From Sphingosinithalassobacter sp. CS137 (GTDB lineage: Bacteria; Pseudomonadota; Alphaproteobacteria; Sphingomonadales; Sphingomonadaceae), in NCBI RefSeq assembly GCF_014334115.1, contig NZ_CP060494.1, forward strand, positions 3,006,501-3,070,500: DNA of 64,000 nt, given 5' to 3'. A model generated the notes under the pieces. That model was given only the letters and a program-made list of their open reading frames with translations, was not told where the DNA came from and searched no databases. The first letter of the stretch is position 1. Each line of letters opens with the position of its first letter. Below are positions 31,193 through 60,702 of this stretch, piece after piece. The position numbers were made by a program, and so were the translations under genes.

Positions 31193-31198
31193 ATTATA
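31193..31198 (-). promoter_or_regulatory. Flagellar-type -10 box, gene 30645-31166
   Basis: Minus strand GGATCCTATAATGAAG. TATAAT with CC before and G after; no TTGACA-like element 16-18 nt upstream. Confidence 0.7.
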
Positions 31199-31238
31199 GG
31201 ATCCCGCGCAGGCGCGGACCCGATTTTCGCGGCCGATA

Positions 31239-32270
31239 TCAGTGGCGTGTCTCGGATGCATGAAGGGCGATCCGGCCGGCCGCTTCCACGGTTTCGGTCG
31301 CGGCGGTGGCGAGCGCGGAGGGCTGAACGGCCGTAACGCGTGCGAGGCGGTTGTGCGGCTGACCGGCATCCGGAAGCAGCGGCGCTCTGGTCTCTGCCGG
31401 TGCGGGGGCGGGGCGACGCCGGGCCGGAGCCGCGGCATAGTCCGCCATCACCGCAAAGCGCGGATCGCTGGCTGCCAGCTCGGTGAGCGCCTTGGTCGCG
31501 CGCTTGGTGATCTGGCGCACGCGCTCCTTGGTCACGCCGGTGTCGTTCGAAACATCGTCGAGCGTGCCGGTATCGAACAGACGGCGGGCGATGATCTCAC
31601 GATCGCGCGCCAGCTTGGCGTCGAGCTTTTCCAGTTCCGCGGGATCGATGCCATGGGTGGCGACGCGCAGGCGCGGTCCCTCGGCGACCGGGCGCGGCTC
31701 GGTGCGGCTGCGCGGCCGGCGACGCAGCTGCTGGATGCCGACCTTACGCAGATTCGCGACGTAGACGTCGATGAGCGATTCGACGGCGCCTTCCGCGAGA
31801 TAATCGGAAGCGGCGGATTCGGTGCGGCCCAGGGCATCCTCGTCCTCGATCAGCGCCTCGGGAGACAGTTCCTCGCCATCGGCACCGGTGGCAAGCGCGT
31901 TCAGCGAAACGGTGGTGGCTTCCACCTTCTTCGCCGACGGGCGCTGGTCGGTCATCAGGCGGAAACGCAGGCTCTGCAGTTCGCCGCGGATCTGCCAGTT
32001 CACGAAGGTCGTGAACTGCGCCTTTTCAGGGTCATAGGCCTGGATCGCGCGGTGCGCTGCGATCGCGCAGCACTGCTCGGCATCGTCCCAGTGTGCGGTG
32101 AGGCCATATTGGCGGATGAAGTGGCGGATGCGCGGAGCGATCAGCTTGAGGATCGATGCGAAGGCACGGTCGACATTGGCGCGCTGACGGGCGGTCTGGC
32201 TCCCTTCGGCGGGCGTATTCTCGAGCACTACGGCGACGGCAGCTTCGAGTGCGGCGGTGATCTTCGACAT
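31239..32270 (-). CDS. Sigma-70 family RNA polymerase sigma factor of the flagellar island
   Basis: 343 residues. Region 2 is seen as WDDAEQCCAIAAHRAIQAYD followed by FTTFVNWQIRGELQSLRFRL (-10 recognition helix). Region 4.2 is seen as TLDDVSNDTGVTKERVRQIT and RATKAL. A long acidic/basic linker between them and a Pro/Ala-rich tail after region 4 are unusual. It is not FliA-like in sequence and not a small ECF factor. It sits among flagellar genes and its own upstream region carries the same TATAAT box as the other flagellar units. Inference: a dedicated flagellar sigma factor, perhaps autoregulated. RBS AGGGGA lies seven nt before the ATG. Confidence 0.8.
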   Translation of the reverse strand: MSKITAALEAAVAVVLENTPAEGSQTARQRANVDRAFASILKLIAPRIRHFIRQYGLTAHWDDAEQCCAIAAHRAIQAYDPEKAQFTTFVNWQIRGELQSLRFRLMTDQRPSAKKVEATTVSLNALATGADGEELSPEALIEDEDALGRTESAASDYLAEGAVESLIDVYVANLRKVGIQQLRRRPRSRTEPRPVAEGPRLRVATHGIDPAELEKLDAKLARDREIIARRLFDTGTLDDVSNDTGVTKERVRQITKRATKALTELAASDPRFAVMADYAAAPARRRPAPAPAETRAPLLPDAGQPHNRLARVTAVQPSALATAATETVEAAGRIALHASETRH

Positions 32271-32477
32271 GGACGGTCCCCTGTTTGCGGGCGGCGGAAC
32301 CCCTGCGGACCGCCGTTCACAAGAGGAACCTTGCCTCCGATACTCCTAACAAAATCCTTAACATCCTATATGGGCGATCCCGTATCCAACACACGACAGC
32401 GGATCGGAACGGGTGCCAACCGCAGAAAGCTGGCGAATAACAAGTATTTCCAAGAGCCGGAGGGGTGCTGGTCCTCC

Positions 32478-32483
32478 ATTATA
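32478..32483 (-). promoter_or_regulatory. Flagellar-type -10 box upstream of the sigma-factor gene
   Basis: Minus strand ATTCTCCTATAATGGAG. It lies 40 bp past the muramidase stop and about 200 nt before the sigma-factor ATG, giving a long leader. The ATTCTCCTATAATG core is shared with the fliK box. Confidence 0.7.
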
Positions 32484-32522
32484 GGAGAATCCCGGAGTAG
32501 CGCGGCGCGCGCGCCAAAAAAT

Positions 32523-33578
32523 TCACCCGGCAAAACGATCCGGTTGGATTCGGCGATCGATGTAGGCGAGCAGCCATTCGCGATGCGCCTCGGTCGCATT
32601 GCCCGTGCGAGCGATGCGCTGTTCGGCGGCTGCGCCTCCGATCTGCGCGACGAGCAGAGTGCGGGCGCGGTCGGGGACCAATCCGCCCCGCAGGAAGCGG
32701 CGCGCGTCGCCCAGCCCGAGGTGATGGCTGAGGTACGCCGCCTTCGCCAGCGCTTCCGGATCGGCACGGACGCGCAGCCCGTCGCTTTCCAGCCGATCGA
32801 GATTCAGCCGCGCGAAATCGGCGACCGTGCGTATCGATGCTTCCGGATCGTAGCGCAGCTGCAGCAGCGCCGAGCGCGCCTGCGGCCGAATCCGGCCCTG
32901 TCCGTCGAGCCAGCCGTGCGAAGCGGCGGTTTCGTTGAGCCACGTGCCCGGCGTGCGGGCCATATCCTGCCAGGTGCCGCTCAGAAACTGTCCGAGACCC
33001 GCTGCGCTGGAACGGGGATTGCGCGAGAGCGGATTCCAGCTTCCGTCGGCGCGACGCGCGGCCTCCGCATCGACGATCGCCGCGATCGCTCCGGCGGGGA
33101 CGCCCGTGGCTTCGGCGGCGCGAGCGAGGGCCGGGGCGAATTGGGCATTGCTGCCCAGCGCCAGCAATCCGCCGCGGGCCTCGCCAACGGCATCGGCTGG
33201 TCCGCCCTGCGGAAAGACCGTTCCGGGGACGGTGATCGTCGGCGCGCTTGGCGCAGCCCTCGCCGCGGCGGCAGGCGTCGCTCCCGGCGCGGCGTCGCCA
33301 TGATGGTGGCGGCAGCAGCAGCAATGATGCGGATGGCCGGCGGTCGTCGCCCCGGTGGCCGCAGTGCCAGGCTGGGCCGAGCCGCCGCCCATCATTTCGA
33401 CGAGCGAACCGAGCGGCAGTCCTGGCCGGCCGGCCGGATTGCTGGCGCTGTTTCCCGAATCCGAGTCGCCGAGCGCAGCGCGCCACAGCCGGTTTGAAAG
33501 TTCCGAACGTGCGGTGGCGTAGATCAGTTCGGCGCGGCGCGCAGGCGGCAGCGCGGCGAGTGCTTCGGGGCCGTTCAT
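32523..33578 (-). CDS. Flagellar lytic transglycosylase-like muramidase with His/Cys cluster
   Basis: 351 residues. The C-terminal half is an SLT-type domain: catalytic Glu in AIVDAEAARR, then WNPLSRNPRSSAAGLGQFL and SGTWQDMA. No signal peptide, so export by the flagellar type III system (FlgJ-like) is possible. Around residues 82-93 a striking run HPHHCCCCRHHH looks like a metal-binding cluster. It overlaps fliJ by four bases (ATGA) as the last gene of flbT-fliI-fliJ. Expected job: open peptidoglycan for the rod. Confidence 0.75.
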   Translation of the reverse strand: MNGPEALAALPPARRAELIYATARSELSNRLWRAALGDSDSGNSASNPAGRPGLPLGSLVEMMGGGSAQPGTAATGATTAGHPHHCCCCRHHHGDAAPGATPAAAARAAPSAPTITVPGTVFPQGGPADAVGEARGGLLALGSNAQFAPALARAAEATGVPAGAIAAIVDAEAARRADGSWNPLSRNPRSSAAGLGQFLSGTWQDMARTPGTWLNETAASHGWLDGQGRIRPQARSALLQLRYDPEASIRTVADFARLNLDRLESDGLRVRADPEALAKAAYLSHHLGLGDARRFLRGGLVPDRARTLLVAQIGGAAAEQRIARTGNATEAHREWLLAYIDRRIQPDRFAG

Positions 33579-34000
33579 CGCACATCTCCGGGCCGCAGCC
33601 GATTGCGGACCAGCCGCGCCGCGACGACGTCGTCAAGGCCGGTCTGCTCGGCAGTTGCGGCCGTGCGCTCGCTTTCCGCGCGATAGTTGTCGGCGGCCTG
33701 TTCGATCGCGCGCATCGTTCCATAGAGTTCGGTTGCCTGGGAGCGAAGCTGCGCCAGCCGCGCCTCGGCGTCGCCCGCGTCCCGCAGCAAGCGCGTGCGC
33801 TCGGCCCGCATCCGCGCCGCCCAGGCATCGGTGGGTACCCAGATTTCGTTCGTGCTCGCGCGTTCCCGCCGCGCGGTATCGATATTCTCGCGGTGGCTGC
33901 GTTCCAGGTCGCTGAGCCGCTCCACGGCGACGCTGATCGAAATCCGCAGCGAATCCACTTCGCGCCGTTGCACGCGAAGCGCAGTGTCGAAGGGAGTCAT
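33575..34000 (-). CDS. fliJ: FliJ-like export chaperone
   Basis: 141 residues, almost wholly helical with heptad patterning (LRISISVAVERLSDLERSH, RLLRDAGDAEARLAQLRSQA), as in the coiled-coil FliJ that sits in the FliI ring. Sequence identity to FliJ is low, but the position directly after fliI with a four-base overlap is typical. Cytoplasmic component of the export gate. Confidence 0.72.
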   Translation of the reverse strand: MTPFDTALRVQRREVDSLRISISVAVERLSDLERSHRENIDTARRERASTNEIWVPTDAWAARMRAERTRLLRDAGDAEARLAQLRSQATELYGTMRAIEQAADNYRAESERTAATAEQTGLDDVVAARLVRNRLRPGDVR

Positions 34001-35322
34001 TCCGCTTCCTCCAGGATGGCGGCAAGCGCTGCAAAGCCGTCGGCGGCGCTACCCTGCTCGTTCTTGCCCTGGCCGAGCAGCTTCTCGATTGCCGGGGCGA
34101 GCGCGACCGCCCGATCGACGTCCGGATTGGAGCCGGCCTTATAGGCGCCGAGTCGCACCATTTCCTCCATGTCGCCATAGGTGGCGAGCAGGCGGCGCGC
34201 GGCGACGCGCGTTTCGTTCTGATCCTCGGGGAGACAGTGCGGCAGCGTCCGCGATACGGATTTCAGCAAGTCGATCGCCGGATAGCGGCCGCGCTCGGCA
34301 ATGGCGCGGCGCATCACGACATGCCCGTCGAGAATGCCGCGCACGGCATCCGCGACCGGCTCGTTGTGATCGTCGCCGTCGACGAGGACAGTGAACAATC
34401 CGGTAATGCTGCCTTGACCCGGAAGGCCGGGCCCGGCGCGCTCGAGCAGCCGCGGCAGCTCGGCGAAGACGGTGGGGGTGTAGCCCTTCGTCGCGGGCGG
34501 CTCGCCGCTGGCGAGGCCGATCTCGCGCTGCGCCATGGCGAAGCGCGTGACCGAATCCATCAGGCAGAGCACGTCGAGCCCCTGGTCACGGAAATGCTCG
34601 GCGACGGCGAGCGTGGTCCAGGCCGCCTGGCGGCGCATCAGCGCGGGCTCGTCGGAGGTGGCGACCACGACGACCGAGCGGGCCATGCCTTCGGGCCCAA
34701 GATCGTCCTCGATGAATTCCTGCACTTCGCGGCCGCGCTCGCCGATCAGGCCGATCACGGCGACGTCGCATTGAGTCCAGCGCGCGAGCATCGAGAGCAG
34801 TACCGACTTGCCGACGCCCGAGCCTGCGAACAGGCCGAGGCGTTGCCCACGGCACAATGGCACGAAACAGTCGAGCGCGCGGACGCCGGTTTCAACGCGC
34901 GCGCCGACGCGGGTGCGATGCGCAGCGGCGGGCGGTAGCGATTTGACCGGCTGGGGATCGGCGCCAAGCGGCAGCGGGCCGAGACCATCGACCGGGCGGC
35001 CGAGACCGTCGATCATGCGACCGAGCCATCCGGCGGACGGGCGGATCGAAAGCTGGCCCGCGGAAAGGTCGGCACGCGCGCCCAGGCCCACGCCCTGCGG
35101 ATCGGAGAAGGGAAGGCAGAGCGCGACGTCGCGATCCAGCGCGGTCACTTCGGTTTCGACTTTGCCGGACATCGAAGTGATCGTGACGCGGCTGCCGATC
35201 TGGGCCGCGCCCATCAGCCCTTCGACTTCGATCAGCGCACCGCGCACCGCGACCACGCGGCCGAAGCGGCGATCGGGTTCGAGCGCGCGGATCGCGCGGG
35301 CGGCGCTGGCGAGTGTCTGCAT
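33997..35322 (-). CDS. fliI: Flagellar export ATPase FliI
   Basis: 441 residues, full length. Walker A GLFAGSGVGKSVL, then VIGLIGERGREVQEF, Walker B region LDVLCLMDSVTRFAMAQREI, and the type III ATPase signature GEPPATKGYTPTVFAELP. Energises export of rod, hook and filament subunits. Follows flbT by 12 bp and overlaps fliJ. Confidence 0.96.
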   Translation of the reverse strand: MQTLASAARAIRALEPDRRFGRVVAVRGALIEVEGLMGAAQIGSRVTITSMSGKVETEVTALDRDVALCLPFSDPQGVGLGARADLSAGQLSIRPSAGWLGRMIDGLGRPVDGLGPLPLGADPQPVKSLPPAAAHRTRVGARVETGVRALDCFVPLCRGQRLGLFAGSGVGKSVLLSMLARWTQCDVAVIGLIGERGREVQEFIEDDLGPEGMARSVVVVATSDEPALMRRQAAWTTLAVAEHFRDQGLDVLCLMDSVTRFAMAQREIGLASGEPPATKGYTPTVFAELPRLLERAGPGLPGQGSITGLFTVLVDGDDHNEPVADAVRGILDGHVVMRRAIAERGRYPAIDLLKSVSRTLPHCLPEDQNETRVAARRLLATYGDMEEMVRLGAYKAGSNPDVDRAVALAPAIEKLLGQGKNEQGSAADGFAALAAILEEAE

Positions 35323-35334
35323 CGCTGCCTCGCC

Positions 35335-35727
35335 TCAGGCTGCCTGCGGTTCGGCTGCAGCGCCTTCGAGCGCGATCAGTTCGCGCGCGGCGGCAAGTGC
35401 GCGATAATGATTGCCGCCTGCGATTTCGCTGGCGAAACGGACGCAGGTTTCCCGCGCGCCGGGTGCAGTCACGCTCGCCAGCACGTCGGCGAGCAGGGCT
35501 ACCACGGCATCCTGGTGGCCTGCGCGGCCTTCCTCGTCGATATAGGCGAGCATGGCCGCAAAATAGAGCTGGCGAGCGGGCGTGGTCGCATCCTCAGGAC
35601 GCATGACTTCGCGGCCGCGCAGGATGGCGACATGGTTCTCGATGACGATCTGGGTCTTGCCGACCGAGCGCAGCACGGCGCCGTTGACGACTGCCTTCTC
35701 GCCGTCGCGCAGCGTGATCCGGAGCAT
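35335..35727 (-). CDS. flbT: Flagellin mRNA regulator FlbT
   Basis: 130 residues from ATG 35727, with AGAAAGG upstream. Signatures: MLRITLRDGEKAVVNGAVL, IVIENHVAILRGREVM, and the ATTPARQLYFAAMLAYID core. In Caulobacter FlbT binds the flagellin mRNA leader and limits its stability until the hook is finished. The usual partner FlaF is not seen here. First gene of flbT-fliI-fliJ-muramidase, with a flagellar-type box 30 nt before the start. The longer frame to 35799 would start upstream of that box. Confidence 0.93.
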   Translation of the reverse strand: MLRITLRDGEKAVVNGAVLRSVGKTQIVIENHVAILRGREVMRPEDATTPARQLYFAAMLAYIDEEGRAGHQDAVVALLADVLASVTAPGARETCVRFASEIAGGNHYRALAAARELIALEGAAAEPQAA

Positions 35728-35757
35728 GAGCGTGCCTTTCTGAAGCGTTTCGCAGGC

Positions 35758-35763
35758 ATTATA
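35758..35763 (-). promoter_or_regulatory. Flagellar-type -10 box, flbT operon
   Basis: Minus strand TTCCTATAATGCCTGCGAA, the same sequence as the flgE box facing the other way. A palindrome lies 31 nt upstream. Confidence 0.75.
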
Positions 35764-35794
35764 GGAAGAAAGCGCTCCGGGCGGGGCAGGGGGC

Positions 35795-35807
35795 GGCAAA
35801 TTCTGCC
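35795..35807. promoter_or_regulatory. Palindrome GGCA-N5-TGCC between flbT and flgE
   Basis: GGCAAATTCTGCC, an ftr-like inverted repeat, 31 bp upstream of the flbT box and 146 bp from the flgE box. Candidate FlbD binding site. Confidence 0.5.
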
Positions 35808-35953
35808 TAGCGCGGCGGCCGAGGCGTGCGCCGCCGCTGCTGCGGCCGGTTTTTTCGACCAGTGAGCCACTCGGGCCCAGGCCTTCAGAGGAGCGCGGGA
35901 AGCGCGGCGAACTGATTCTTTCGCGCCTGCGACCGCCTTCGCCACTCTCTTCC

Positions 35954-35959
35954 TATAAT
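35954..35959 (+). promoter_or_regulatory. Flagellar-type -10 box, flgE operon
   Basis: TTCCTATAATGCCTGCGAA on the plus strand. Transcription should start near 35966, which rules out the TTG at 35974 as an efficient start and leaves TTG 36001. Confidence 0.75.
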
Positions 35960-36000
35960 GCCTGCGAAGGGCCTTGCGCCTGCATCCGGGAGACACTGAG

Positions 36001-37263
36001 TTGAGCCTCTATTCCGCACTCTACGCCGGCGTTTCTGGTTTGAGCGCGCATGCGAGCGCGATGGCCACCGTCGCGGACAACATCACCAACATCAACACCG
36101 TGGGCTACAAGGGCACCGAGGCCCAGTTCCGCACGCTGGTGACCGATGGCCGCGGTGGCAGCAGCTATTCGGCAGGCGGCGTCGCCGCCGCGCCGATCTC
36201 GCAGGCGACCAAACAGGGCTTGCTTCAGGCATCGGGCAGCAACACCGACCTCGCGATCGACGGCGGCGGCTTTTTCGTCACCCGCACGGGTTCGGGTAAC
36301 GACAGCGCCGTCGCGTTCACGCGTGCGGGCTCGTTCAAGGCAGACGAGCAGGGCTTCCTGCGCAACGCCTCGGGCCTCTACCTCCAGGGCTGGCCGCTCA
36401 AGAACACGACGCCGGCCTATGTCAACACCGGGAGCCTCGATGATCTGCAGCCGATCCGGCTCAGCGACCTGACCGGCACCGCGCAGCCGACCACGCGGCT
36501 GATGATGCGCGCCAACCTCCAGTCGGACGCCGCCGTCGGCGCGACGTTCGAGCGTTCGTTCGAAGTCTATGACGCGCAGGGCGGCTCGCGCACGCTGAGC
36601 ATGACCTTCGAGAAGACCGCGGCGAACACGTGGAGCTTCGAGGTCGAGGGCGACACCTCCGCCTCCAACCCGCTGGCATCGGGCACGATGACCTTCGGCG
36701 GTGACGGCAGCCTCGCCGGGATCACGGGCACCAAGTACGACGGTTCGGCCATCACCGATCCGTTCACGCTCACGCCCGACTGGACCGGGGGCGCGGGCAC
36801 TTCGGAAATCACGCTGGAGCTCGGCGACATCGGCGGCATCAACGGCATCACGCAGTTCGGGCAGCCGTCCTCGGTGATCTCGTCGGACGTCAACGGGGGC
36901 CTGCTCGGCAACCTGGCCACGGTCGACGTCAGCAAGACCGGCCGAGTGACCGCCGTGTTCGACGACGGCACGACCCGCGAAGTCTTCCAGCTTCCGATCG
37001 CCACCTTCCAGAACCCGGACGGTCTCACGCGCCTGTCGGGCAATGCCTATACCGCAAGCAAGGGCTCGGGTGGCGTGACGCTGAACGAACCCGGTTCGCT
37101 CGGCGCCGGCAATGTGGCGTCCAATTCGCTCGAAGCCTCGACGGTCGACCTCGCCGGCGAATTCACCAACATGATCCGGTTCCAGCGCGCCTACAGCGCC
37201 TCGTCCAAGATCATCACGACGGTGGACGACATGCTGCGCGAAGTGAGCGATCTGAAGCGCTGA
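36001..37263 (+). CDS. flgE: Flagellar hook protein FlgE
   Basis: 420 residues from a TTG start at 36001, with GGGAGA seven nt upstream. It begins with the classic LYSALYAGVSGLSAHASAMA and DNITNINTVGYKGTEAQF of axial proteins and ends EASTVDLAGEFTNMIRFQRA, the C-terminal D0 helix. The middle (GTMTFGGDGSLAGITG) is the surface domain. Forms the universal joint. First gene of flgE-flgK-flgL; a GC hairpin separates it from flgK. Confidence 0.96.
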   Translation: MSLYSALYAGVSGLSAHASAMATVADNITNINTVGYKGTEAQFRTLVTDGRGGSSYSAGGVAAAPISQATKQGLLQASGSNTDLAIDGGGFFVTRTGSGNDSAVAFTRAGSFKADEQGFLRNASGLYLQGWPLKNTTPAYVNTGSLDDLQPIRLSDLTGTAQPTTRLMMRANLQSDAAVGATFERSFEVYDAQGGSRTLSMTFEKTAANTWSFEVEGDTSASNPLASGTMTFGGDGSLAGITGTKYDGSAITDPFTLTPDWTGGAGTSEITLELGDIGGINGITQFGQPSSVISSDVNGGLLGNLATVDVSKTGRVTAVFDDGTTREVFQLPIATFQNPDGLTRLSGNAYTASKGSGGVTLNEPGSLGAGNVASNSLEASTVDLAGEFTNMIRFQRAYSASSKIITTVDDMLREVSDLKR

Positions 37264-37276
37264 TGATCTGACGAAA

Positions 37277-37298
37277 CCCCCGCGCTTCGGCGCGGGGG
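37277..37298 (+). terminator. Intercistronic UUCG hairpin between flgE and flgK
   Basis: A perfect 9-bp stem CCCCCGCGC/GCGCGGGGG closed by TTCG, 13 bases past the flgE stop. No T run follows, so partial termination or 3'-end stabilisation of the flgE message is more likely than full termination. Confidence 0.6.
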
Positions 37299-37322
37299 CA
37301 CCAGCGAACAGGGCGGGGTCCA

Positions 37323-39419: not shown

Positions 39420-39433
39420 AGGAGACGGAGACA

Positions 39434-40339
39434 ATGACGAGAGTTGCCACCATTCCGCTCCAGCGCGTCATGGCCGACGCGATCCAGCGTTCGCAGGAGA
39501 AGCTGGCGATCACGCAGACGCGGCTGTCGACGGGCAAGAAGGCGGCGAATTTCGCCGACCTTGGCACCGAGACGGTGCGCAACCTTTCGGCGCACAGCCT
39601 GCTCGCGCGACAGGAGGCGGAAGCCACCGTCGCCAAGCGCGTGGGAACGACGCTGTCGCTCTACGAGGGCCATCTCACCGGCATCGAGGAATCGGCGAGC
39701 ACGCTGAAGACCGACGTGCTCACGGCGATCGGCACCGGCCGCGCCGCCGGGCTTCAGGAGGCCATCGAGACGGCCTTTCATCAGTTCCGCACCTCGCTGA
39801 ACGCATCCGAAGGCGGCACGCCGCTCTTTGCCGGATCGCAGACGGGCGGCAAGCCTTTCCGTCCCGACGCTCTTTCCGATCTCGTCGGGCTGGCGCCCGA
39901 CGATGCCTTCGCCGACGATGGCGTCCGTGCATCGGCGCGAGTGGCCGACGGAGTCGACGTGACCTATGGCATCACTGCCAGCGCCACTGGCCGCGACCTG
40001 TATCAGGCGCTCCGTACGCTCGCCGAGGCCGGGCCGATCGGCGAGGTTCCGACCGACACCCAGATCGCCGCGCTGCGCACCGCGGTCGACCAGCTGGAGA
40101 CCGGGCTTGGCAGCCTTCGCTCGGTGAACGCCGAGAACGGCCGCAAGCAGGCGCAGGTGGAGACGCTGTCGACGCGCGGCGAAGAACGCGCGCTGCTGCT
40201 CAAAGGCGTGATCGAAAGCAACGAGGACGCCGACCTGGGCCAGGTGGCGGTCGACCTCGCCCAGCAGAAATCGATGCTGGAAGCGAGCTATTCGGTGTTC
40301 GCCCAGCTTTCCGGGCTCAGCCTGGTCCGCTTCCTCTAA
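39434..40339 (+). CDS. flgL: Hook-associated protein 3 FlgL
   Basis: 301 residues of the flagellin/HAP3 family. N-terminus RVATIPLQRVMADAIQRSQE and LAITQTRLSTGKKAANFADL; C-terminus DLGQVAVDLAQQKSMLEASY and SVFAQLSGLSLVRFL. Second junction protein, binding the first flagellin ring. RBS AAGGAGA precedes the ATG. Last gene of the flgE-K-L run, ended by a GC hairpin. Confidence 0.93.
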   Translation: MTRVATIPLQRVMADAIQRSQEKLAITQTRLSTGKKAANFADLGTETVRNLSAHSLLARQEAEATVAKRVGTTLSLYEGHLTGIEESASTLKTDVLTAIGTGRAAGLQEAIETAFHQFRTSLNASEGGTPLFAGSQTGGKPFRPDALSDLVGLAPDDAFADDGVRASARVADGVDVTYGITASATGRDLYQALRTLAEAGPIGEVPTDTQIAALRTAVDQLETGLGSLRSVNAENGRKQAQVETLSTRGEERALLLKGVIESNEDADLGQVAVDLAQQKSMLEASYSVFAQLSGLSLVRFL

Positions 40340-40350
40340 GGAACCGCGCC

Positions 40351-40380
40351 GGCGGCGGCTGCCCCTCGGGCGCCGCCGCC
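40351..40380. terminator. Hairpin between convergent flgL and TPR gene
   Basis: A perfect 9-bp stem GGCGGCGGC/GCCGCCGCC with a 12-nt loop, 12 bases past the flgL stop. There is no T tract. Confidence 0.5.
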
Positions 40381-40497
40381 GCATCCAAGCACCCTCTCAG
40401 AACATCGTTTCGGCGGTGCCGCGCGCTTCTGGCGTCTGCCGGAAAGGCTCGCGCAACGCTGTCAGCGGCGCGTCCTTGGGCGCGCCGGGAGCGGCCC

Positions 40498-42297
40498 TCA
40501 GCCCTGAGGCGCCGCCGCTTCCTCGCTTGCGTCGAGCAGATCCGCCAGCCCACCGGCGGGCGATGCAGCGGGAATCGCGGCGAGGGCGCGGCCGAGCACT
40601 TCGGGATCGACGCTTCCGCTCGGCTGCGTGAGCGCATCGAACACGCTTGCCGTGGGAAGCGCCGCGAAACGATCGGCATAGCGGCCGCGCAGCGCGGCAA
40701 GCGCCGGCTCCTGCCCGAGCATGGCGAGTGCCACTGCATGACGCAGCACAGCGGTCTGCGCCTCGGGCTCGAGCCTGCCCCCGCCGGGGAGGGCGGCGGC
40801 GTTTGCAGCGACGAAGCTGCCCCATTCCTTGCGGCGCCAGAGGAGTTCGGCACGGATGGCGCCGTTGGCGGGAACGCTTTCCAGCGCCGCCATGGCCGCT
40901 TCGTATCGGCCGAGCCGCTGAAGCGCCACTGCCTCGATCCGCTTGCGATCGTGCAGCATCGCGGGCGAATAGCCGGGCTGCTCGGTGTCGCGCAGCGTGC
41001 GCAGCGCGCGATCCGGATCCCCGGCGAGGACATGGAGCGTGGCGACCTGGACCGACAAGGGGCCCTGCGCCACATCCTGGGTGCGCTCGCTCAGCTGATA
41101 TTGCAGCAGCTCGGCGGCGCGGCCGTAGAGGCTCTCGCTCTGCAGCCGCTCGGCGAGGCGGCGTACCATCGCATCGCCCTCGGCACCGGCGGGGGCCAGC
41201 TCGCGATAGTCCCAATAGAGGCCCGCCGCCTCGGCTACCGGAAGCGCGCTGTCGGCGGCGAGCAGACTCGCCAGCACCGACTGCAGCTGCGCGAGCAGTT
41301 CGCCGGCTTCGCTGCCGGGATTGAAATAGCGGAACAGCGCCGCGCCCGCGCGCAGTGCCGCGCGCGGATCGTTCAGCTCCTCGGCGAGCCGTACCGACAG
41401 GCGAAGCGCCCGCCGTTCGACCGGACCGCCGCGCCAGCCGAAGCGGAGCGCGTCGAGCTTCTCCAGCGCGGCGGCGCCGGCGATGTTGCCTTGCTTCAGA
41501 TCGGCCTCGATCATCGCGAGCCGCGCGTCGGCGCGCTGCTCGGCCGTACCGCTCACCAACGCCCGCTCGAGGCGAAGCCGGCCGTCCTGCAACGCGCCGG
41601 TCGCGATCAGCGCGCGACCGCGCAGCAGGTTCACGGCGGGGTCGCGGTCCGGCAGGGGCTGCAGCCACGGCAGCGCGTTCTGCGGTCGCCCGGCATCGAT
41701 CACCTGTTCGGCGGCGGCGACCACGAAGGGAGTGCGCGCATCGCCCTGGCGGCTGTTGATCGCCGGAAGCGCGCAGGGGAGTTCGGCCAGCGCCGTCTCG
41801 GCCTCGCCGGCACCGGCGAAAGCCCGCAGGCGCCATGCGCATGCCTCTGGATTGGTGGCGAGCCCGGGCGCTGCGAGCGCCACTGCGGCATCGCTCCAGC
41901 GGCGAAGCTGCGTGAGCGCCACTCCTTCGGCAAGGCGGAAGGCGGCGACACGGTCGAGATCGGCATCGGCGCCGCGCATCACGGCCAGCACGCCGAGCGC
42001 TTCGGCGGCGCGTCCGCGACCAAGCAGCGCGCGGGCATGATCCCAGCGCGCTTCCTGCCGTCGTTCGGGCGCTGCGACAAGCAATGCATTCCAGCTGGCG
42101 GTGCCCTGCCACGCGGAGGGGCCGGTCGGCGGCGGAAGCTGGGCCAGTCGCGCGGCGAAGCCGGGAAGGTCGAGCGGCGCCATCGGCGCGGGAGCCGCGG
42201 GGGGCGGGCTCGCGGTGCCGGCCTGCGGCGTCTCCTCGGCCTGCGAGGGCGCGGCAAGCGCCAGTACTGCGGCGGCCGTGAGCAACATCTGCTTCAT
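40498..42297 (-). CDS. Exported TPR-like repeat protein of the flagellar island
   Basis: 599 residues. Signal peptide MLLTAAAVLALAAPSQA, a Pro/Ala linker, then an all-helical repeat region (WDHARALLGRGRAAEALGVL, RLQSESLYGRAAELLQYQL) resembling TPR/Sel1-type solenoids. Probably periplasmic. Its start overlaps the upstream small membrane protein gene by four bases and both follow a flagellar box. Rhizobial MotC is also a periplasmic protein working with MotE and MotB, and a motE gene lies nearby, so a MotC-like role is possible. This is a guess from context. Confidence 0.7.
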   Translation of the reverse strand: MKQMLLTAAAVLALAAPSQAEETPQAGTASPPPAAPAPMAPLDLPGFAARLAQLPPPTGPSAWQGTASWNALLVAAPERRQEARWDHARALLGRGRAAEALGVLAVMRGADADLDRVAAFRLAEGVALTQLRRWSDAAVALAAPGLATNPEACAWRLRAFAGAGEAETALAELPCALPAINSRQGDARTPFVVAAAEQVIDAGRPQNALPWLQPLPDRDPAVNLLRGRALIATGALQDGRLRLERALVSGTAEQRADARLAMIEADLKQGNIAGAAALEKLDALRFGWRGGPVERRALRLSVRLAEELNDPRAALRAGAALFRYFNPGSEAGELLAQLQSVLASLLAADSALPVAEAAGLYWDYRELAPAGAEGDAMVRRLAERLQSESLYGRAAELLQYQLSERTQDVAQGPLSVQVATLHVLAGDPDRALRTLRDTEQPGYSPAMLHDRKRIEAVALQRLGRYEAAMAALESVPANGAIRAELLWRRKEWGSFVAANAAALPGGGRLEPEAQTAVLRHAVALAMLGQEPALAALRGRYADRFAALPTASVFDALTQPSGSVDPEVLGRALAAIPAASPAGGLADLLDASEEAAAPQG

Positions 42298-42533
42298 TGG
42301 CCGAACATTCCCGAATGCGCGGCCATGGCCACGGCGACGCCGCCACCGGCGCTGCCAAGCAGGAAGAGGCCGATCAGCAGCAGCGACAGGCCGCGCGGCT
42401 TCGCCGGAACGGCGTCGACGGCAGGCAGCTGTGCGGCATCGCTCTCTTGCGGGCTGTCGCCCCGTCTGCGCTGCGGCTGAGGCGTGCTCTGCCCGACGAC
42501 GCGCATGCGTCCGGGGCGTTGATCGTAGCTCAT
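42294..42533 (-). CDS. Small single-pass membrane protein, flagellar regulon
   Basis: 79 residues. A basic, Gln/Arg-rich N-terminus (VVGQSTPQPQRRRGD) precedes one membrane helix (GLSLLLIGLFLLGSAGGGVA). First gene of the pair with the TPR-like protein, overlapping it by ATGA. A flagellar box lies 28 nt upstream of the ATG. Function unknown. Confidence 0.65.
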   Translation of the reverse strand: MSYDQRPGRMRVVGQSTPQPQRRRGDSPQESDAAQLPAVDAVPAKPRGLSLLLIGLFLLGSAGGGVAVAMAAHSGMFGQ

Positions 42534-42560: not shown

Positions 42561-42567
42561 TATTATA
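42561..42567. promoter_or_regulatory. Near-palindromic flagellar box between divergent genes
   Basis: CTCTATTATAGAG. Minus strand TATAAT (42567-42562) points at the 42533 gene. Plus strand TATTAT (42561-42566) points at the 42612 gene. One box could serve both directions. Confidence 0.6.
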
Positions 42568-42580
42568 GAGAGGGGCGCGC

Positions 42581-45637: not shown

Positions 45638-45644
45638 TATTATA
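45638..45644. promoter_or_regulatory. Near-palindromic flagellar box between fliL and flgF
   Basis: CCTATTATAGG. Minus strand TATAAT points at fliL (58 nt to the ATG). Plus strand TATTAT points at flgF (54 nt to the ATG). Confidence 0.65.
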
Positions 45645-45656: not shown

Positions 45657-45669
45657 GGCAAAAAGTGCC
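45657..45669. promoter_or_regulatory. ftr-like palindrome in the fliL-flgF intergene
   Basis: GGCAAAAAGTGCC, 12 nt upstream of the fliL box, but downstream of the box for flgF. A bound protein could help fliL and hinder flgF. Confidence 0.5.
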
Positions 45670-48612: not shown

Positions 48613-48625
48613 GGCAATTTTTGCC
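48613..48625. promoter_or_regulatory. ftr-like palindrome upstream of flagellin
   Basis: GGCAATTTTTGCC, a clear GGCA-N5-TGCC site about 200 bp upstream of the flagellin ATG and 53 bp before a TATACC element. Confidence 0.5.
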
Positions 48626-49655: not shown

Positions 49656-49693
49656 GGGCGTATCGCGCTTTTCCCTGGAAGCGCGGACACCTC

Positions 49694-49728: not shown

Positions 49729-49765
49729 TGCGCCGCTCCGGCGCCCGCGCCCTCCTCGTCCCCTC

Positions 49766-49771
49766 TATAAT
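49766..49771 (+). promoter_or_regulatory. Flagellar-type -10 box, gene 49793
   Basis: GTCCCCTCTATAATGGGG on the plus strand. Only 21 nt separate it from the TTG start, leaving room for just the AGGAGG site. Confidence 0.7.
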
Positions 49772-49792
49772 GGGGATAGCCAGGAGGTTCGC

Positions 49793-50197: not shown

Positions 50198-50307
50198 CCC
50201 CGAAGTCGCTTGCGTAGGGATTTCTCCTGAATACGCGTAGAACCGGGGCACGGGCATTGAGCTTGTGAGGGCGCGGGGTTGGCGCCGAAGGGTAAAGGGG
50301 GTGGAGA

Positions 50308-51683: not shown

Positions 51684-51695
51684 TGCTAAAGCCTC

Positions 51696-53195: not shown

Positions 53196-53235
53196 GCGGC
53201 CCCTCGTTCGCAGTGCCGATGCGGCACTGCCTTTC

Positions 53236-53241
53236 ATTATA
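53236..53241 (-). promoter_or_regulatory. Flagellar-type -10 box, fliK-flgD
   Basis: Minus strand AATTCTCCTATAATGAAAG, placed in the 71-bp gap between flhA and fliK. Shares its ATTCTCCTATAATG core with the sigma-factor box. Confidence 0.75.
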
Positions 53242-53266
53242 GGAGAATTGACGCCTCCGCGGGCGC

Positions 53267-55348: not shown

Positions 55349-55416
55349 CAGCGGATCTCGAACCTTTTCCAGCCGAACTCACAGAGAGGCCGGAGCGTGG
55401 CGATTGGAGGTTTTCG

Positions 55417-56754
55417 TCAGGCGGCCGGCGACACGGCAATGCCCGCCTCGACGAAGCTCTTGAGCTTGTTGCGCATGGTGCGCACCGAGATGCCCAGGAT
55501 GCTCGATGCCGAGGTGCGGTTGCCGTGGCAGCGCTCGAGAGTCTGCAGGATCAGCTCGCGCTCGACTTCCTCGACGGTCCGGCCGACGAGATTCTCGACC
55601 TGGAGCCGCGAGGCGCCTTCACCGGCGTCGCGCTCCGCGATCCGCGATCCGTCGATCAGCACCAGATCCTCGGGTTCGATCCGTGCGCCGCGGGCGAGCA
55701 GCACGGCGCGGTGCACCGCATCCTCGAGCTCACGAACGTTGCCCGGCCAGCTGTAGCGCCGCAGCAGCGCAAGCGCGGCGTCGCTCAGCGGCCGGAACGG
55801 AAGCCCGTCGGATACCGCCATCCTTTCGGCGAAATGCTGCGCCAGCAACGCGATATCGTCGCCGCGCGCGCGCAGCGGCGGAACCTCGATGCGCGCGAAA
55901 CCGAGCCGCGCGAGAAGATCAGCGCGGAAGGCCCCTTCGGCGACGCGCGCTTCCAGATCCATGCCGGTCGAGGCGATGATCCGGGCGCGGAACGGCACGA
56001 GCTCGGCGCCGCCGACGCGGCGGAAGCGCTGTTCCTGGAGCACACCGAGCAGCTTCGCCTGTGTGGCCGGTGCCACGGCGCCGACTTCGCGCAGCAGCAC
56101 CGTGCCTTCACCTGCCTTCTCCAGCCGACCGAGACGACGCGCTATTGCGCCGGGGAAGGCGCCTTCCTCATGGCCGAACAGCTCGGATTCGAGCACTTCG
56201 GCGGCGACGCCCGAGCATTCGACGACGAGCAGCGGATCGGGACGGCCCGAGGCGGCGTGGATGGCGCGCGCCATCACTTCCTTGCCGGTGCCTTTCTCCC
56301 CGGTGACGAGCACGGGCGCGCCGCTCGGCGCCACTGCGACCGCAAGTTCGGTAGCACGCATGAGGGCGGGGTGTTCGCCCAGGCCGCGCGGCACGCGGCG
56401 CGCCACGACCGACGCGATCGCTGCGGCGATCAGTTCGCGCTGCGGCGGCAGCGGCACATAGTCGCGCGCGCCGGCGCGGATCGCCGCGACCGCGCGTTCG
56501 GCGGGCGCGTCGACTCCGCACCCCAGCACCGGAACGATGAAGCGTTCGGCGCGAAGCCGCTCGAGAAAGCCGACGATGTCGAGCCCGACATCGAACATCA
56601 CCAGATCGCAGCCGCTCTCGCGCAGCAGTGCCAGCGCCTCGGCAGGGCCGTCGGCCATCGCGGCCTCGGCACCCGCATCGCGCGCCAGCTCGGCGGCAAG
56701 ACGGAATTCGCCGCCAGGCGCGCCGACCAGCAGCATACGGATCGGTCCGGCCAT
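55417..56754 (-). CDS. flbD: FlbD-type flagellar response regulator with altered AAA+ motifs
   Basis: 445 residues: degenerate receiver (MLLVGAPGG, no acidic pair; FDVGLDIVGF), AAA+ domain, Fis-type HTH (NRTSASSILGISVRTMRNKL). The receiver and HTH match Caulobacter FlbD closely. Walker A GEKGTGKEVMARAI is intact. Two normally invariant sites differ: the sigma-54-contacting loop reads GAFPGA instead of GAFTGA, and Walker B reads TVLLREVG instead of hhhhDE. I checked both from the bases. Such a protein should not remodel sigma-54 normally. It overlaps fliN by one base. Inference: a DNA-binding regulator working with a sigma-70-type polymerase. Confidence 0.9.
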   Translation of the reverse strand: MAGPIRMLLVGAPGGEFRLAAELARDAGAEAAMADGPAEALALLRESGCDLVMFDVGLDIVGFLERLRAERFIVPVLGCGVDAPAERAVAAIRAGARDYVPLPPQRELIAAAIASVVARRVPRGLGEHPALMRATELAVAVAPSGAPVLVTGEKGTGKEVMARAIHAASGRPDPLLVVECSGVAAEVLESELFGHEEGAFPGAIARRLGRLEKAGEGTVLLREVGAVAPATQAKLLGVLQEQRFRRVGGAELVPFRARIIASTGMDLEARVAEGAFRADLLARLGFARIEVPPLRARGDDIALLAQHFAERMAVSDGLPFRPLSDAALALLRRYSWPGNVRELEDAVHRAVLLARGARIEPEDLVLIDGSRIAERDAGEGASRLQVENLVGRTVEEVERELILQTLERCHGNRTSASSILGISVRTMRNKLKSFVEAGIAVSPAA

Positions 56755-57110
56755 CAGCGGTCCGCCCGAACGATTTCGGTGAGCGTCACGCCGAGAGCTC
56801 CGTCGATCAGCACAACCTCGCCGCGTGCGATCAGCCGATCGTTGACGAAGATGTCGACCGGTTCACCGACCCGCCGATCGAGTTCGAGTACATGCCCCGG
56901 CCCAAGCTGGAGCAGTTCGCCCACCGGCATCCGCGTGCGGCCGAGTACGGCCTGCACCTTCACCGGGACGTCATGAACAGCTTCCAGCTCCTCCGGCGTG
57001 CCGGCGCCAGGCGCCTCGCGTTCCGGGGCGGCGTCGAAATCCTCGAGGATCGGCGCACCGGTTTCCTCGGCGGGGGCGGCTTCGGCGGGAATGATATCGT
57101 GCGGTTCCAC
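56754..57110 (-). CDS. fliN: Flagellar motor switch protein FliN
   Basis: 118 residues. The acidic N-terminal part is followed by a C-terminal SPOA domain: HDVPVKVQAVLGRTRMPVGE, GHVLELDRRVGEPVDIFVND, RGEVVLIDGALGVTLTEIV. Forms the base of the C ring with FliM. Thirteen bp after fliF and one-base overlap with flbD. Confidence 0.94.
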   Translation of the reverse strand: MEPHDIIPAEAAPAEETGAPILEDFDAAPEREAPGAGTPEELEAVHDVPVKVQAVLGRTRMPVGELLQLGPGHVLELDRRVGEPVDIFVNDRLIARGEVVLIDGALGVTLTEIVRADR

Positions 57111-57123
57111 GTACGGGGCTCCT

Positions 57124-58725
57124 TCAGGCGTTCATCCAGTGGCGGATCACCGACGCGGCCTCGGGGGGGCTCGCGGCGATGGCGTCGCCGATGCGCTTCA
57201 GCGCGGAGAGTTTGATGCGGCCGTCGACCTGCGCCATCTCGATCTCCTGATCGAGCATCGGATGCTGGCGGCCGGCTTCGAGTGCGGCGAGCTCCTGCTG
57301 CGCTTCGGGATCGCCTTCGGCGGCGCGGCCGGCCAGCGCGATCATCTCGGGGGATTGTTCCTCGATCATCGCCGGTTCGGCCACGGCGGGCGCGATCTTC
57401 GGCTTCAGCATTCGCAGAGCGATCAAGCCGGCAGCGGCGATCACGAGCAGCTGAAGCAGCCCGAACACCCGATCCATGGAAAGGAGCGACAGGAAGCTGT
57501 TCTCGCCCTCGGCCAGATCCTCGACCGGTGCGAAGGCCATGCTCTCGACGACCACGCTGTCGCCGCGTTCGGCGTCGATGCCGACGGCGTTCTCGACCAG
57601 GCGAGTCAGCCGCTGGACCTGTTCGGCGGGCAGGCCCGCTTCGCCGCCATCGACCATCACCGCGACAGTGAGGCGCGTGACCTTGCCCGGCGCGCGCACC
57701 GTGACCGTGCGGCGCGAGCTGTTCTGATAGGTCGTGTCCTCGGACGTCTGGTTGCTCGCCGACCGGCGGCTCTCGCCGGGCAGGCCGGCTGCAGCGCCTT
57801 CGTTCTCGGGCAGCTGCTCGGCAACGGTGGCGGCAGGAGGCGCGGCGCCGTTCTCCTCGTCCTGGCTGCCGTTCTCGACCGTCACCTGACGGGCGATCAC
57901 CTGCGTATCCGGATCGAAGATATTCGCTTCCTCGCGCGTGGCATCGCGATCGATCTGGGCGGAAACCTCGGCACGCACCTTGCCCTGGCCGACGATCGGC
58001 TCGAGCAGCGATTCGATTTCGTCGCGCATCCGCGTCTCGACCTGCGTCTGGCGTGCGTCGGCGTCGCCGGCAACGGCGGCATCGGGATCGCCGGCGCGAG
58101 CGAGCAGCGCGCCCGACTGATCGACGATCGAAACCGACTCGGGCGACAGCTCGGGCACCGAGGACGAAACGAGATAGCGTATCGCGGCGATCGTTTCGGC
58201 GGGCAGGCGGCCGCGCGTCTTCACCGTCACGGCGGCCGAGGCCGGCCGCCGCTCGGCGGCGAACATCGCCCGCTCGGGCATGACGATATGGACGCGTGCG
58301 CGGGCGATGCTCTCAAGGCTCTCGATCGAGCGGACGAGCTCGCCTTCGATCGCGCGCGTCTCGTTCAGCTTGGCGCGGCTGGCGGAAACGCCGAACGATT
58401 CCTCCTGGTCGAGCACGTCATAGCCGATCGCGCCGCCCAGCCGTTCGCCGGCCAGGCTCATGCGCAGCTCGGCGAGTCGGTCCTGCGGCGCCATCACCGA
58501 GCTGCCGTCGGCGGAGAGGCGATATTCGACGCCCTGCGCTTCCAGCTTCTCGACGATCGTCTGCGCCGCGCCGGGATCGAGATCGGTGTAGAGAAAGCCC
58601 ATCTGCGGGTCCGAGCCGCGCGTCGCCACGAATGCGAGCGCCGCCAGCAGCGCCAGTGCGACGCCCCCCATCAGCATCAGCCGCTTGGGCCCGAGCTGCT
58701 CCGCGAATTTTCTGATTGCTTCCAA
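57124..58725 (-). CDS. fliF: MS-ring protein FliF
   Basis: 533 residues. A first membrane helix (KRLMLMGGVALALLAALAFV), periplasmic ring-building domains (FLYTDLDPGAAQTIVEKLEA, TRAIEGELVRSIESLESIAR), a second helix (FGLLQLLVIAAAGLIALRML) and a short cytoplasmic tail that binds FliG. First gene of fliF-fliN-flbD-flhA, preceded by a box and two palindromes. Confidence 0.95.
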   Translation of the reverse strand: MEAIRKFAEQLGPKRLMLMGGVALALLAALAFVATRGSDPQMGFLYTDLDPGAAQTIVEKLEAQGVEYRLSADGSSVMAPQDRLAELRMSLAGERLGGAIGYDVLDQEESFGVSASRAKLNETRAIEGELVRSIESLESIARARVHIVMPERAMFAAERRPASAAVTVKTRGRLPAETIAAIRYLVSSSVPELSPESVSIVDQSGALLARAGDPDAAVAGDADARQTQVETRMRDEIESLLEPIVGQGKVRAEVSAQIDRDATREEANIFDPDTQVIARQVTVENGSQDEENGAAPPAATVAEQLPENEGAAAGLPGESRRSASNQTSEDTTYQNSSRRTVTVRAPGKVTRLTVAVMVDGGEAGLPAEQVQRLTRLVENAVGIDAERGDSVVVESMAFAPVEDLAEGENSFLSLLSMDRVFGLLQLLVIAAAGLIALRMLKPKIAPAVAEPAMIEEQSPEMIALAGRAAEGDPEAQQELAALEAGRQHPMLDQEIEMAQVDGRIKLSALKRIGDAIAASPPEAASVIRHWMNA

Positions 58726-58775
58726 GATCGCCCCGCCATTCGCCGGATACCCTGGGCACGCGGCCCGATAGCTCT

Positions 58776-58781
58776 CTTATA
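58776..58781 (-). promoter_or_regulatory. Flagellar-type -10 box variant, fliF operon
   Basis: Minus strand GCTCCTCCTATAAGAGAG: TATAAG instead of TATAAT, 50 nt before the fliF ATG. Confidence 0.65.
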
Positions 58782-58795
58782 GGAGGAGCGACGGC

Positions 58796-58826
58796 GGCAG
58801 ATTCTGCCGGGTGGGAAATTTTTGCC
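58796..58826. promoter_or_regulatory. Tandem ftr-like palindromes upstream of fliF
   Basis: GGCAGATTCTGCC (58796-58808), a perfect 13-bp palindrome 14 nt upstream of the TATAAG, and a weaker GGAAATTTTTGCC (58814-58826). Centres are 18 bp apart. Confidence 0.6.
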
Positions 58827-58858
58827 GGGCTTGGGTCCGGCACATGCCGAACATGGCT

Positions 58859-58888
58859 CGACCGCGGCGGCACGGGCCGCCGCGGTCG
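58859..58888. terminator. Long GC hairpin after fliH
   Basis: A perfect 13-bp stem CGACCGCGGCGGC/GCCGCCGCGGTCG with a 4-nt loop, 55 bases past the fliH stop. No T run. Probably marks the end of fliG-fliH. Confidence 0.5.
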
Positions 58889-58943
58889 TCCGGGCAGGTC
58901 AGGGCTGCCGTCCGCGAAGGGCAGCGGCAGCCGATGAGTAGGG

Positions 58944-59597
58944 CTAGAGGTCCTTGGGCAGCAGCGTCTCGAGCTCGGCCGCGATTTCCGCGCGCCGCGC
59001 TGCGGCATCAAGCACAAGGCCCCCTTGTTCCCAAACGATGTGCGCATCGCCAGGGACCAGCGCCGGATCGGGCACGACGGCCAAATTCAGCCGGCGGCGG
59101 TCCTTGCTCTGGCGGTCGGCGATCCGTGCCTCGATCTCGGAAACCAGATCGGGATGGACGCGGATCAGCAGTTCGGTGCCGCGTGCCACCTGTTCTAGCA
59201 CACGCCCGATCGCACCGTCGATCGCCGCCGCGGGAGCCGCTTCGAGCGCGCGTCCGGCGAGCAGCTCGGCTGCGGCGAGCGCCACATCGGTCGCTTCGCC
59301 GGTGAGGCGCTCGGCGGTCTCGGCGAACTGGCCGTCGAGCGCCTCGATCCCCGCCTGCAGCGAATCCACGGCGCTCAGCAATGCGGTGTCGCGTTCGGTG
59401 CGGGCGTGGGTCAGCCCTGCCTCGAAGCCGTCGGCCCGTGCCATTGCCAGCGCGCCTTCGTGGTCGGCGCGCAACACCGCCAGCTCCTTGCGCAGCGCCG
59501 CGAGCTCGAGCGTGAGATCGCTGCGCGGCGCCTCGCTCTCGGGCATGGCGGCCGTGAAGACCCGATCGAATGCGAAGCGCTGAACGTGCAGACTCAT
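58944..59597 (-). CDS. fliH: Flagellar export regulator FliH
   Basis: 217 residues. Helical N-terminal stalk (LTLELAALRKELAVLRADHE) and a C-terminal domain with LLIRVHPDLVSEIEARIADR and GDAHIVWEQGGLVLDAAARR, which are FliH/SctL signatures. Holds FliI in an inactive form and guides it to the gate. Ten bp after fliG. Confidence 0.88.
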   Translation of the reverse strand: MSLHVQRFAFDRVFTAAMPESEAPRSDLTLELAALRKELAVLRADHEGALAMARADGFEAGLTHARTERDTALLSAVDSLQAGIEALDGQFAETAERLTGEATDVALAAAELLAGRALEAAPAAAIDGAIGRVLEQVARGTELLIRVHPDLVSEIEARIADRQSKDRRRLNLAVVPDPALVPGDAHIVWEQGGLVLDAAARRAEIAAELETLLPKDL

Positions 59598-59607
59598 CGC
59601 CGACTCC

Positions 59608-60642
59608 TCAGATGATCATCGCATCGTCGCTCTTGGGATCGACGAGCAGAATCTCGCCGCGATCCGCAAGCGACTTGGCGAGACGGACGAGCGCGGTCTG
59701 CGCTTCCTCGCAGTCGCGCGCACGGACGGGGCCCATCGCGGCCATGTCCTCGCGCATCAACTTGGCGGCGCGCTCGGTCATGGCGCCGAAGAAGAGGTTC
59801 TTCATCTCTTCCGGGGCGCCCTTGAGCGCCAGCGCCATCTCGCGCTTGTCCGCATTGCGAACGATGACGGCGATCGCGGCCGGCAGCAGATTGCCCAGAT
59901 CCTCGAAGGTGAACATCAGCGCGCGAATGCGTTCGGCGCTCTCGGGCGCCTTTTCGTCGAGCGCGGTCAGCATCGCCTCTTCGGTCGAGCGATCGAGCGC
60001 GTTGAACATCTCGGCCATGGCCTCATGCGGATCGCGCTTGTTGGTGCGCGACAGATTGGTCATGAATTCGGTCTTCAGCGTCTGCTCGACCTGCTGGATG
60101 ACTTCCTTCTGCACCGTCTCCATGCGCAGCATGCGCATCACGACGTCGGTGGAGAAGTCGCGCGGCAGTTCGGCGATCACGCGTGCGGCATGATCGGCGC
60201 GCAGCTTGGAGAGGATCACTGCAACCGTCTGCGGATATTCCTGCTTGAGCGCGCCGGCGAGCACGGTTTCGGATACGTTGGAGAGCTTGTCCCACATCGT
60301 CCGGCCGCTCGGCCCACGCAGATCCTCCATGATCTCCTTCACGCGGTCGCCCGGCAGCACGCTGGTAAGCAGCCGCTCGGTCGTCTCGTAGCTGCCGTGC
60401 AGCGAGGCCATGCTCGACACTTCGCCGGTGAACTGGACCAGCAGATGCTCCACCACCGCCGCGGGGATGCGGCCCAGCCCGGCGATCACGCCCGAAAGCT
60501 CCTTGATTTCGTCTACCGAGAGCTGTTCCCAGATGGGGGCTCCATGGTCCTTGCCCAGCGCCAGCATCAGTGCGGCGGCGCGCTGGGGGCCGGAGAATCG
60601 CTTCAGTTCGGGCGGCTCGGCCACCGGCGTCATCACGGTCAT
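59608..60642 (-). CDS. fliG: Flagellar motor switch protein FliG
   Basis: 344 residues. FSGPQRAAALMLALGKDHGA at the start, the middle PQTVAVILSKLRADHAARVI (EHPQ-type loop), and the C-terminal torque domain FTFEDLGNLLPAAIAVIVRN with charged helix AAKLMREDMAAMGPVRARD. Transmits torque from the stator. ATG 60642 is used. A flagellar box lies 54 nt upstream in a divergent intergene. Confidence 0.96.
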   Translation of the reverse strand: MTVMTPVAEPPELKRFSGPQRAAALMLALGKDHGAPIWEQLSVDEIKELSGVIAGLGRIPAAVVEHLLVQFTGEVSSMASLHGSYETTERLLTSVLPGDRVKEIMEDLRGPSGRTMWDKLSNVSETVLAGALKQEYPQTVAVILSKLRADHAARVIAELPRDFSTDVVMRMLRMETVQKEVIQQVEQTLKTEFMTNLSRTNKRDPHEAMAEMFNALDRSTEEAMLTALDEKAPESAERIRALMFTFEDLGNLLPAAIAVIVRNADKREMALALKGAPEEMKNLFFGAMTERAAKLMREDMAAMGPVRARDCEEAQTALVRLAKSLADRGEILLVDPKSDDAMII

Positions 60643-60695
60643 GCAACTTCCCTGAAAATTGCGTCCGCGCGCACCCGCATGGGCACGCACCCCTC

Positions 60696-60702
60696 TATTA
60701 TA
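60696..60702. promoter_or_regulatory. Near-palindromic flagellar box between fliG and the propeller gene
   Basis: CCTCTATTATAGAAGGG. Minus strand TATAAT points at fliG; plus strand TATTAT points at the gene at 60733. Confidence 0.6.

Follow-up and report, generated by a model that had tools for sequence, protein, structure and literature searches.

A conserved TATAA(T/G) box and a putative sigma factor in a sphingomonad flagellar island

Among the closest described systems, FliA is an alternative sigma-70-family factor for motility genes, and its promoters combine a −35 element TAAA with a −10 element GCCGATAA. In the Caulobacter hierarchy of CtrA, sigma-54/FlbD and FlbT, FlbD represses fliF and activates later genes. 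The T4 protein gp55 is a box-only sigma factor, whose promoters have an AT-rich −10 box and lack a real −35 element. This report compares with these systems a flagellar island of Sphingosinithalassobacter sp. CS137, in which a short box ending in TATAA(T/G) recurs in front of flagellar genes. The window, meaning the whole stretch of 64,000 nucleotides analysed, covers positions 3006501-3070500 of a 3.19-Mb single-contig genome. Probably, at a likelihood of roughly 0.6, the boxes serve as −10 elements and define a promoter class specific to motility genes, TCC-TATAA(T/G), whose most likely reader is RNA polymerase with a sigma factor encoded in the island; a palindrome upstream would probably be bound by an FlbD-type protein. 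We infer promoter activity, the reader of the box, the binder of the palindrome and the activator and repressor roles from sequence comparison.

Every component has a known counterpart, in flagellar sigma factors, in enhancer-binding proteins reported at sigma-70 promoters and in sphingomonads with two flagella. According to extracts of one paper (PMC10274813), NtrC of Caulobacter, NtrC of Rhodobacter capsulatus and VspR lack the GAFTGA motif and are reported at sigma-70 promoters, and Caulobacter FlbD retains the motif. Extracts of a 2026 preprint describe two Sphingomonas flagella, acquired independently and expressed differentially, and a term search of the preprint's text found neither 'sigma' nor 'promoter' (PMC13015449). 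Among the titles and abstract openings listed by searches of open-access literature, no description of this sigma factor or box, of their combination, or of this sigma family in motility was found.

The box and its distribution

An earlier note on this DNA had listed ten boxes, and their positions proved exact: nine read TATAAT and one, at 58776, reads TATAAG. All ten face a gene of the island, with 21-207 nt between the hexamer and the first plausible start, and the sole TATAAT of the window beyond them lies at 5327, within rplM. TATAAT occurs ten times in the 64 kb; over 100 shuffled sequences the mean is 0.78 and the maximum 4. The hexamer is preceded by C in ten of ten cases, and by C or T one base further back, again in all ten.

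The commonest form, TCC-TATAAT, is found on the minus strand before an open reading frame (ORF) of unknown family (box 31193..31198; ORF 30645-31166, start at 31166 or 31160), 207 nt 5′ of the gene for the sigma-like protein (32478..32483), and before flbT (35758..35763), fliL (45639..45644) and fliK (53236..53241); flbT itself (35335..35727, minus strand) is named by its Pfam/NCBIfam model match. The same form stands on the plus strand before flgE (35954..35959). CTC-TATAAT precedes a 79-aa ORF (42562..42567, minus strand; ORF 42294-42533) and a 134-aa ORF (49766..49771, plus strand), while TCC-TATAAG precedes fliF (58776..58781, minus strand) and TTC-TATAAT precedes fliG (60697..60702, minus strand; gene 59608-60642). 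Gene names were taken from Pfam and NCBIfam models; the fliG score of 224.3 bits is slightly below the cut-off of 226.7. Between 35755 and 35966, the divergent flbT and flgE boxes have a longer identical stretch, TTCCTATAATGCCTGCGAA, in common, which may be a local duplication.

The ten boxes are thus real, but the class is larger than the earlier note had it. The island extends beyond the window, and a search for CTATAA brings the boxes taken to 19, reaching roughly 89 kb when counted from the start of the window. The additional boxes precede flgI, a rod gene, a fliN-type gene, motA, two chemoreceptor genes, the gene of a 798-aa protein with a HAD-hydrolase match, and the ORF 83438-85327; another precedes an alginate-export-type gene, whose membership in the set is doubtful. 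In the 124 kb scanned, CTATAA occurs 24 times; the five copies dropped lie before the island (16104, 21864) or within called genes (34139, 61014, 95701), and the copy at 60698, which overlaps a gene call without Pfam match, was kept because fliG comes next. No exact box was found before this genome's flagellin gene.

In profiles built from these sites, the core columns are set by the search pattern and the flanks alone are informative. T is indeed the commonest last base, yet the alternatives extend beyond TATAAG (12 T, 5 G, 1 C and 1 A among the 19). As claimed earlier, no TTGACA-like −35 element appears at about 17 bp in the aligned profiles of 19, 35 and 97 sites; at the −35 place there is a weak CC, 19-20 nt 5′ of CTATAA, with about 0.2-0.3 bits (97 sites). 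Like T4 gp55 promoters, the island promoters would combine an AT-rich −10 box with no real −35 element. The FliA element GCCGATAA shares CC and ATAA with TCCTATAA; the island boxes differ in having the core TCCTATAA(T/G) and no TAAA-type −35.

Instead of serving as −10 elements, the boxes might act as operators or at the RNA level. Some copies are near-palindromes (for example TCCTATAATAGGA), and a reverse-sense TATAGGA recurs before the sigma-like gene; many sites, however, are without symmetry, the conserved bases differ on the two sides of the core (YYC in front, R behind), and the uniform orientation of all ten boxes towards a gene also speaks against this explanation, which is highly unlikely.

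Across the genome, CTATAAT occurs 57 times, against 20 for the reversed pattern. The island contains twelve of the 57, all but one outside called genes; the exception, at 60697, lies under an opposite-strand ORF call that is taken to be over-long. All 45 copies outside the island were scored by codon use: 37 lie in coding-like DNA and eight do not, two of the eight being borderline. The longer form TCCTATAAT is found nine times, with eight copies in the island. The same genome carries a second flagellar system (G000:C1, about 2.03-2.06 Mb; L217, L218), which has a true FliA (205.3 bits, cut-off 189.6) and an FlbD-type regulator with intact GAFTGA. Three copies of CTATAA fall within the surrounding 80 kb, none of them in front of a flagellar gene.

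Five further genomes (G278, G290, G275, G253 and G190, the flagellar genes of the last being split between two places) carry related clusters in which the sigma-like gene lies near fliI, and the comparison with other sphingomonads proposed earlier shows that these islands keep boxes at the same genes. From the five regions, 35 of 67 CTATAA were kept as promoter-placed, those left out being inside homologous genes, too distant, or before homologues of two omitted genes, g43 and g92; position −2 is T in 26 of the 35, and position −1 is a pyrimidine in every one. A wider FliI search gave 80 named loci, 13 with FliI at least 75% identical (genera Sphingomonas, Novosphingobium, Stakelama and Sphingobium) and 67 with at most 66%, of which some are short and two are metagenome-assembled genomes labelled Sphingomonadales. 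The sigma-like gene is present in 13 of the 13 close loci and in none of the 67 others, and promoter-placed CTATAA(T/G) in 12 of 13 as against 4 of 67; 12 of the close loci have CTATAA before flbT. Similarly, FliF of the island's own type (at least 58%) occurs in six of 296 genomes of the order, and these are the six with the sigma-like gene in a flagellar cluster.

Counts of TCCTATAAT are 9, 11 and 10 in the three same-genus genomes with the island (reversed-pattern controls 1, 0 and 12), and 0-5 in the 26 other genomes of the genus, all but one of these 26 carrying FliF of another type. As an order-wide diagnostic the count was rejected, as it works inside the genus only and G275 is not beyond its control. 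The earlier proposal of a dedicated promoter class is supported by the genome-wide specificity, the conserved boxes, the lack of boxes in the second flagellar system and the higher TCCTATAAT counts in the same-genus island genomes. The sigma-like gene, the palindrome and the degenerate FlbD described below go beyond that note.

The sigma-like protein

The candidate reader of the box is a divergent sigma-70-family protein of 343 residues (P0001; 31239..32270, minus strand), recognised by Pfam, a structural model and fold matches. Region 4 scores 32.3 bits (cut-off 24.1) and region 2 scores 20.9 bits (cut-off 24), the latter rising to 24.2 bits with neighbours in frame. An AlphaFold model based on 36 sequences is confident for residues ~3-107 and 210-268, which covers both regions. 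A profile search of the PDB gave region 4 of RpoS as its best match (E 1.4e-5), and most of the Foldseek matches listed are either chains from polymerase-promoter complexes or other sigma factors, a result taken solely as support for sigma-type domains. By regions 2 and 4, the island protein is a member of the sigma-70 family, with a putative role in initiation; database names for such proteins use general sigma-factor terms only. It was rejected as a FliA, since it scores 27 bits with the FliA_WhiG model (cut-off 189.6), and the true FliA belongs to the second system.

A comparison of 31 homologues, of which 11 lie outside flagellar loci, shows strong conservation of region 2, and little is kept in region 4 except E249, R252, Q253 and R257. 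Region 2 would bind the box, and the protein would read TCCTATAA(T/G) as a −10 element without a standard −35; the poor conservation of region 4 suits a box that lacks TTGACA or any other real −35. Unlike T4 gp55, the island protein keeps a region-4-like helix-turn-helix.

A related island in G233 offers a comparison. It encodes a full-length divergent homologue of the sigma-like protein (32% identity, hhalign probability 97.9), and its boxes read GGCTATAAC (n=3), which suggests that box and sigma factor may have varied together.

The genes on either side of the sigma-like gene (30645-31166 and 32523-33578) recur beside it. For these two (30645-31160 and 32523-33578) no Pfam match was found at E up to 1, and they are possible candidates for anti-sigma factors. 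In G278, a second copy of the sigma-like gene (G278:C6:339956-340906), with 70% identity, lies away from the flagellar island. Directly before the sigma-like gene, at about 32280-32380, TATAGGA and TTAA elements recur among orthologues (L037, L106-L117); TTAA pairs are found there in several relatives, with variable spacing. This stretch is perhaps a CtrA-type promoter.

The upstream palindrome and the FlbD-type protein

An alignment of 96 boxes from 19 genomes, which are partly orthologous promoters, has an A/T tract about 36 nt 5′ of the box. This tract is the centre of a palindrome, GGCAAAnTTTGCC, found with at least 10 of 12 matches in 31 of the 96 promoters, against 0.7 in shuffled sequences. 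The distance from its centre to the box is 35-39 nt in 20 of the 31, 17-20 nt in nine, and something else in two. If the box is a −10 element, the distal palindrome, some 37-38 nt 5′ of it, would be near −50 and the proximal one, at some 18 nt, near −31. The proximal place is that of fliL (45657..45669) and fliF (58796..58808), and a weaker second palindrome lies at the distal place 5′ of the fliF box (~58814-58826). The flbT box has its palindrome, GGCAAATTCTGCC, at the distal place (35795..35807), and another copy, GGCAATTTTTGCC, lies 5′ of the flagellin gene (48613..48625). As a motif by itself, GGCA-N5-TGCC was set aside, for its four occurrences in the window against 1.64 expected are equalled by 13 of 100 shuffles; given this non-significant count, the case for the palindrome is made by its spacing and conservation.

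The probable ligand of the palindrome is encoded between fliN and flhA. This FlbD-type protein (55417..56754, minus strand) has FlbD as its best NCBIfam model, with 464.6 bits against a cut-off of 750, and carries GAFPGA in place of GAFTGA and an arginine in place of the Walker-B aspartate (LLRE). Among its homologues, taken as the best 120 of 7808, the GAFTGA threonine is present in two and the Walker-B aspartate in none, with arginine at the first aspartate position in 114; the Walker-A lysine is kept in all 120. By comparison, all three residues are intact in 15 of 15 controls, namely 13 FlbD-type proteins encoded at other loci, one from G053 and the regulator of the second system. The decay goes further in some genomes: the AAA+ domain of FlbD is gone at the loci of G190 and G290, the rest of those genomes not having been searched, and no flbD lies between fliN and flhA in G233, where the search covered this locus and not the rest of the genome.

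The loss of the threonine that contacts sigma-54 and of the Walker-B aspartate, together with that of the AAA+ domain in two genomes, points to a plain DNA-binding role. FlbD probably binds GGCAAAnTTTGCC, and may act as an activator at the distal and a repressor at the proximal palindrome; these two places resemble the repression of fliF and activation of late genes by Caulobacter FlbD. The island has flbT and an FlbD-type gene in common with the Caulobacter hierarchy, and differs from it in that neither sigma-54 promoters above chance nor a working FlbD motor were found. As in the enhancer-binding proteins without GAFTGA, the contact to sigma-54 is lost; the difference is that the island case concerns a flagellar FlbD, in which the Walker-B aspartate is lost as well and the AAA+ domain is deleted in two genomes. 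The FlbD of Sphingomonas sp. WG has been taken as a sigma-54 activator, according to extracts of its description (PMC8921679); the FlbD sequences analysed here make such a role doubtful for this clade.

Continued control of the flagellar genes by sigma-54 and FlbD, with incidental boxes, would be in keeping with the FlbD-type gene in the island and with rpoN, which is present in seven of seven genomes tested, so that sigma-54 itself has not been lost. However, the motif losses in the best 120 homologues, set beside the intact controls, the missing AAA+ domains and the gene absent from the G233 locus all oppose it. A search of the window for sigma-54 promoters, which were discarded as candidates, gave 19 sites with up to two mismatches against 21.85 expected, a number at chance level. 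Such control can be given almost no credence.

Weighing the interpretation

A simpler scheme would have the boxes as ordinary RpoD −10 elements, with an activator near −50, derived from FlbD or other, recruiting polymerase, and the island sigma-like protein doing something else. TATAAT is the RpoD −10 consensus, a perfect match that also counts against the proposed dedicated sigma factor, and the fixed spacing of the palindrome would suit an activator site. The scheme also has a precedent in the enhancer-binding proteins without GAFTGA reported at sigma-70 promoters (extracts of PMC10274813). On the other hand, CTATAAT is scarce in non-coding DNA outside the island, 65 of the 96 box promoters are without a good palindrome, G233 keeps boxes though flbD is gone at its locus, and in each of the 13 close loci the sigma-like gene is linked with the island. 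This scheme is possible, if on the unlikely side.

The reading of the boxes as −10 elements of the island sigma factor is itself somewhat complicated by further observations that weigh against it. The claim that the box is restricted to motility genes holds in that CTATAAT outside the island is mostly coding; it fails for two non-coding sites outside the island, TCCTATAAT at 611631 and CTCTATAAT near 2674151, each before a gene without evident motility role. The specificity of the box is strong, not absolute. The count of 10 for TCCTATAAT in G275 does not exceed its reversed-pattern control of 12, and the counts in G290, G253 and G190 are low (5, 4 and 3). The box promoters compared are in part orthologous and do not count as independent samples. 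In G233, the co-variation of box and sigma factor is seen at three sites only, and GGCTATAAC occurs 14 times in that genome, with three copies falling inside an 8-kb stretch of the island.

As to the protein, the Foldseek result is weak, with one listed match at E<=0.001 and low global template-modelling (TM) scores. Shorter relatives are found outside flagellar loci in other sphingomonads (L043-L064), several of which share neighbours that we take to be electron-transfer flavoprotein genes. G138 has the sigma-like gene with its neighbour (G138:C2:52728-53615, L042) in a genome in which no FliF was found, and the 70 kb read there contain no flagellar genes. Finally, the distal box of the sigma-like gene itself is kept in closer relatives only.

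Taken as an evolutionary scenario, the dedicated sigma factor would imply that the regulon has moved from sigma-54/FlbD to a sigma factor of its own. There is perhaps an even chance that a new flagellar sigma factor with box-only promoters replaced sigma-54 in one sphingomonad lineage, FlbD being demoted to a motor-less DNA-binding protein, truncated in some members and lost at the locus in one, and the box changing along with the sigma factor (TCCTATAAT in most islands, GGCTATAAC in G233). The states of FlbD across genomes (intact relatives, motor-dead, truncated and absent) would allow the conversion of a sigma-54 circuit into a sigma-70-type one to be studied. For the organism itself, the putative sigma factor and its box provide a concrete candidate for the means by which two flagella may be run separately in one sphingomonad.

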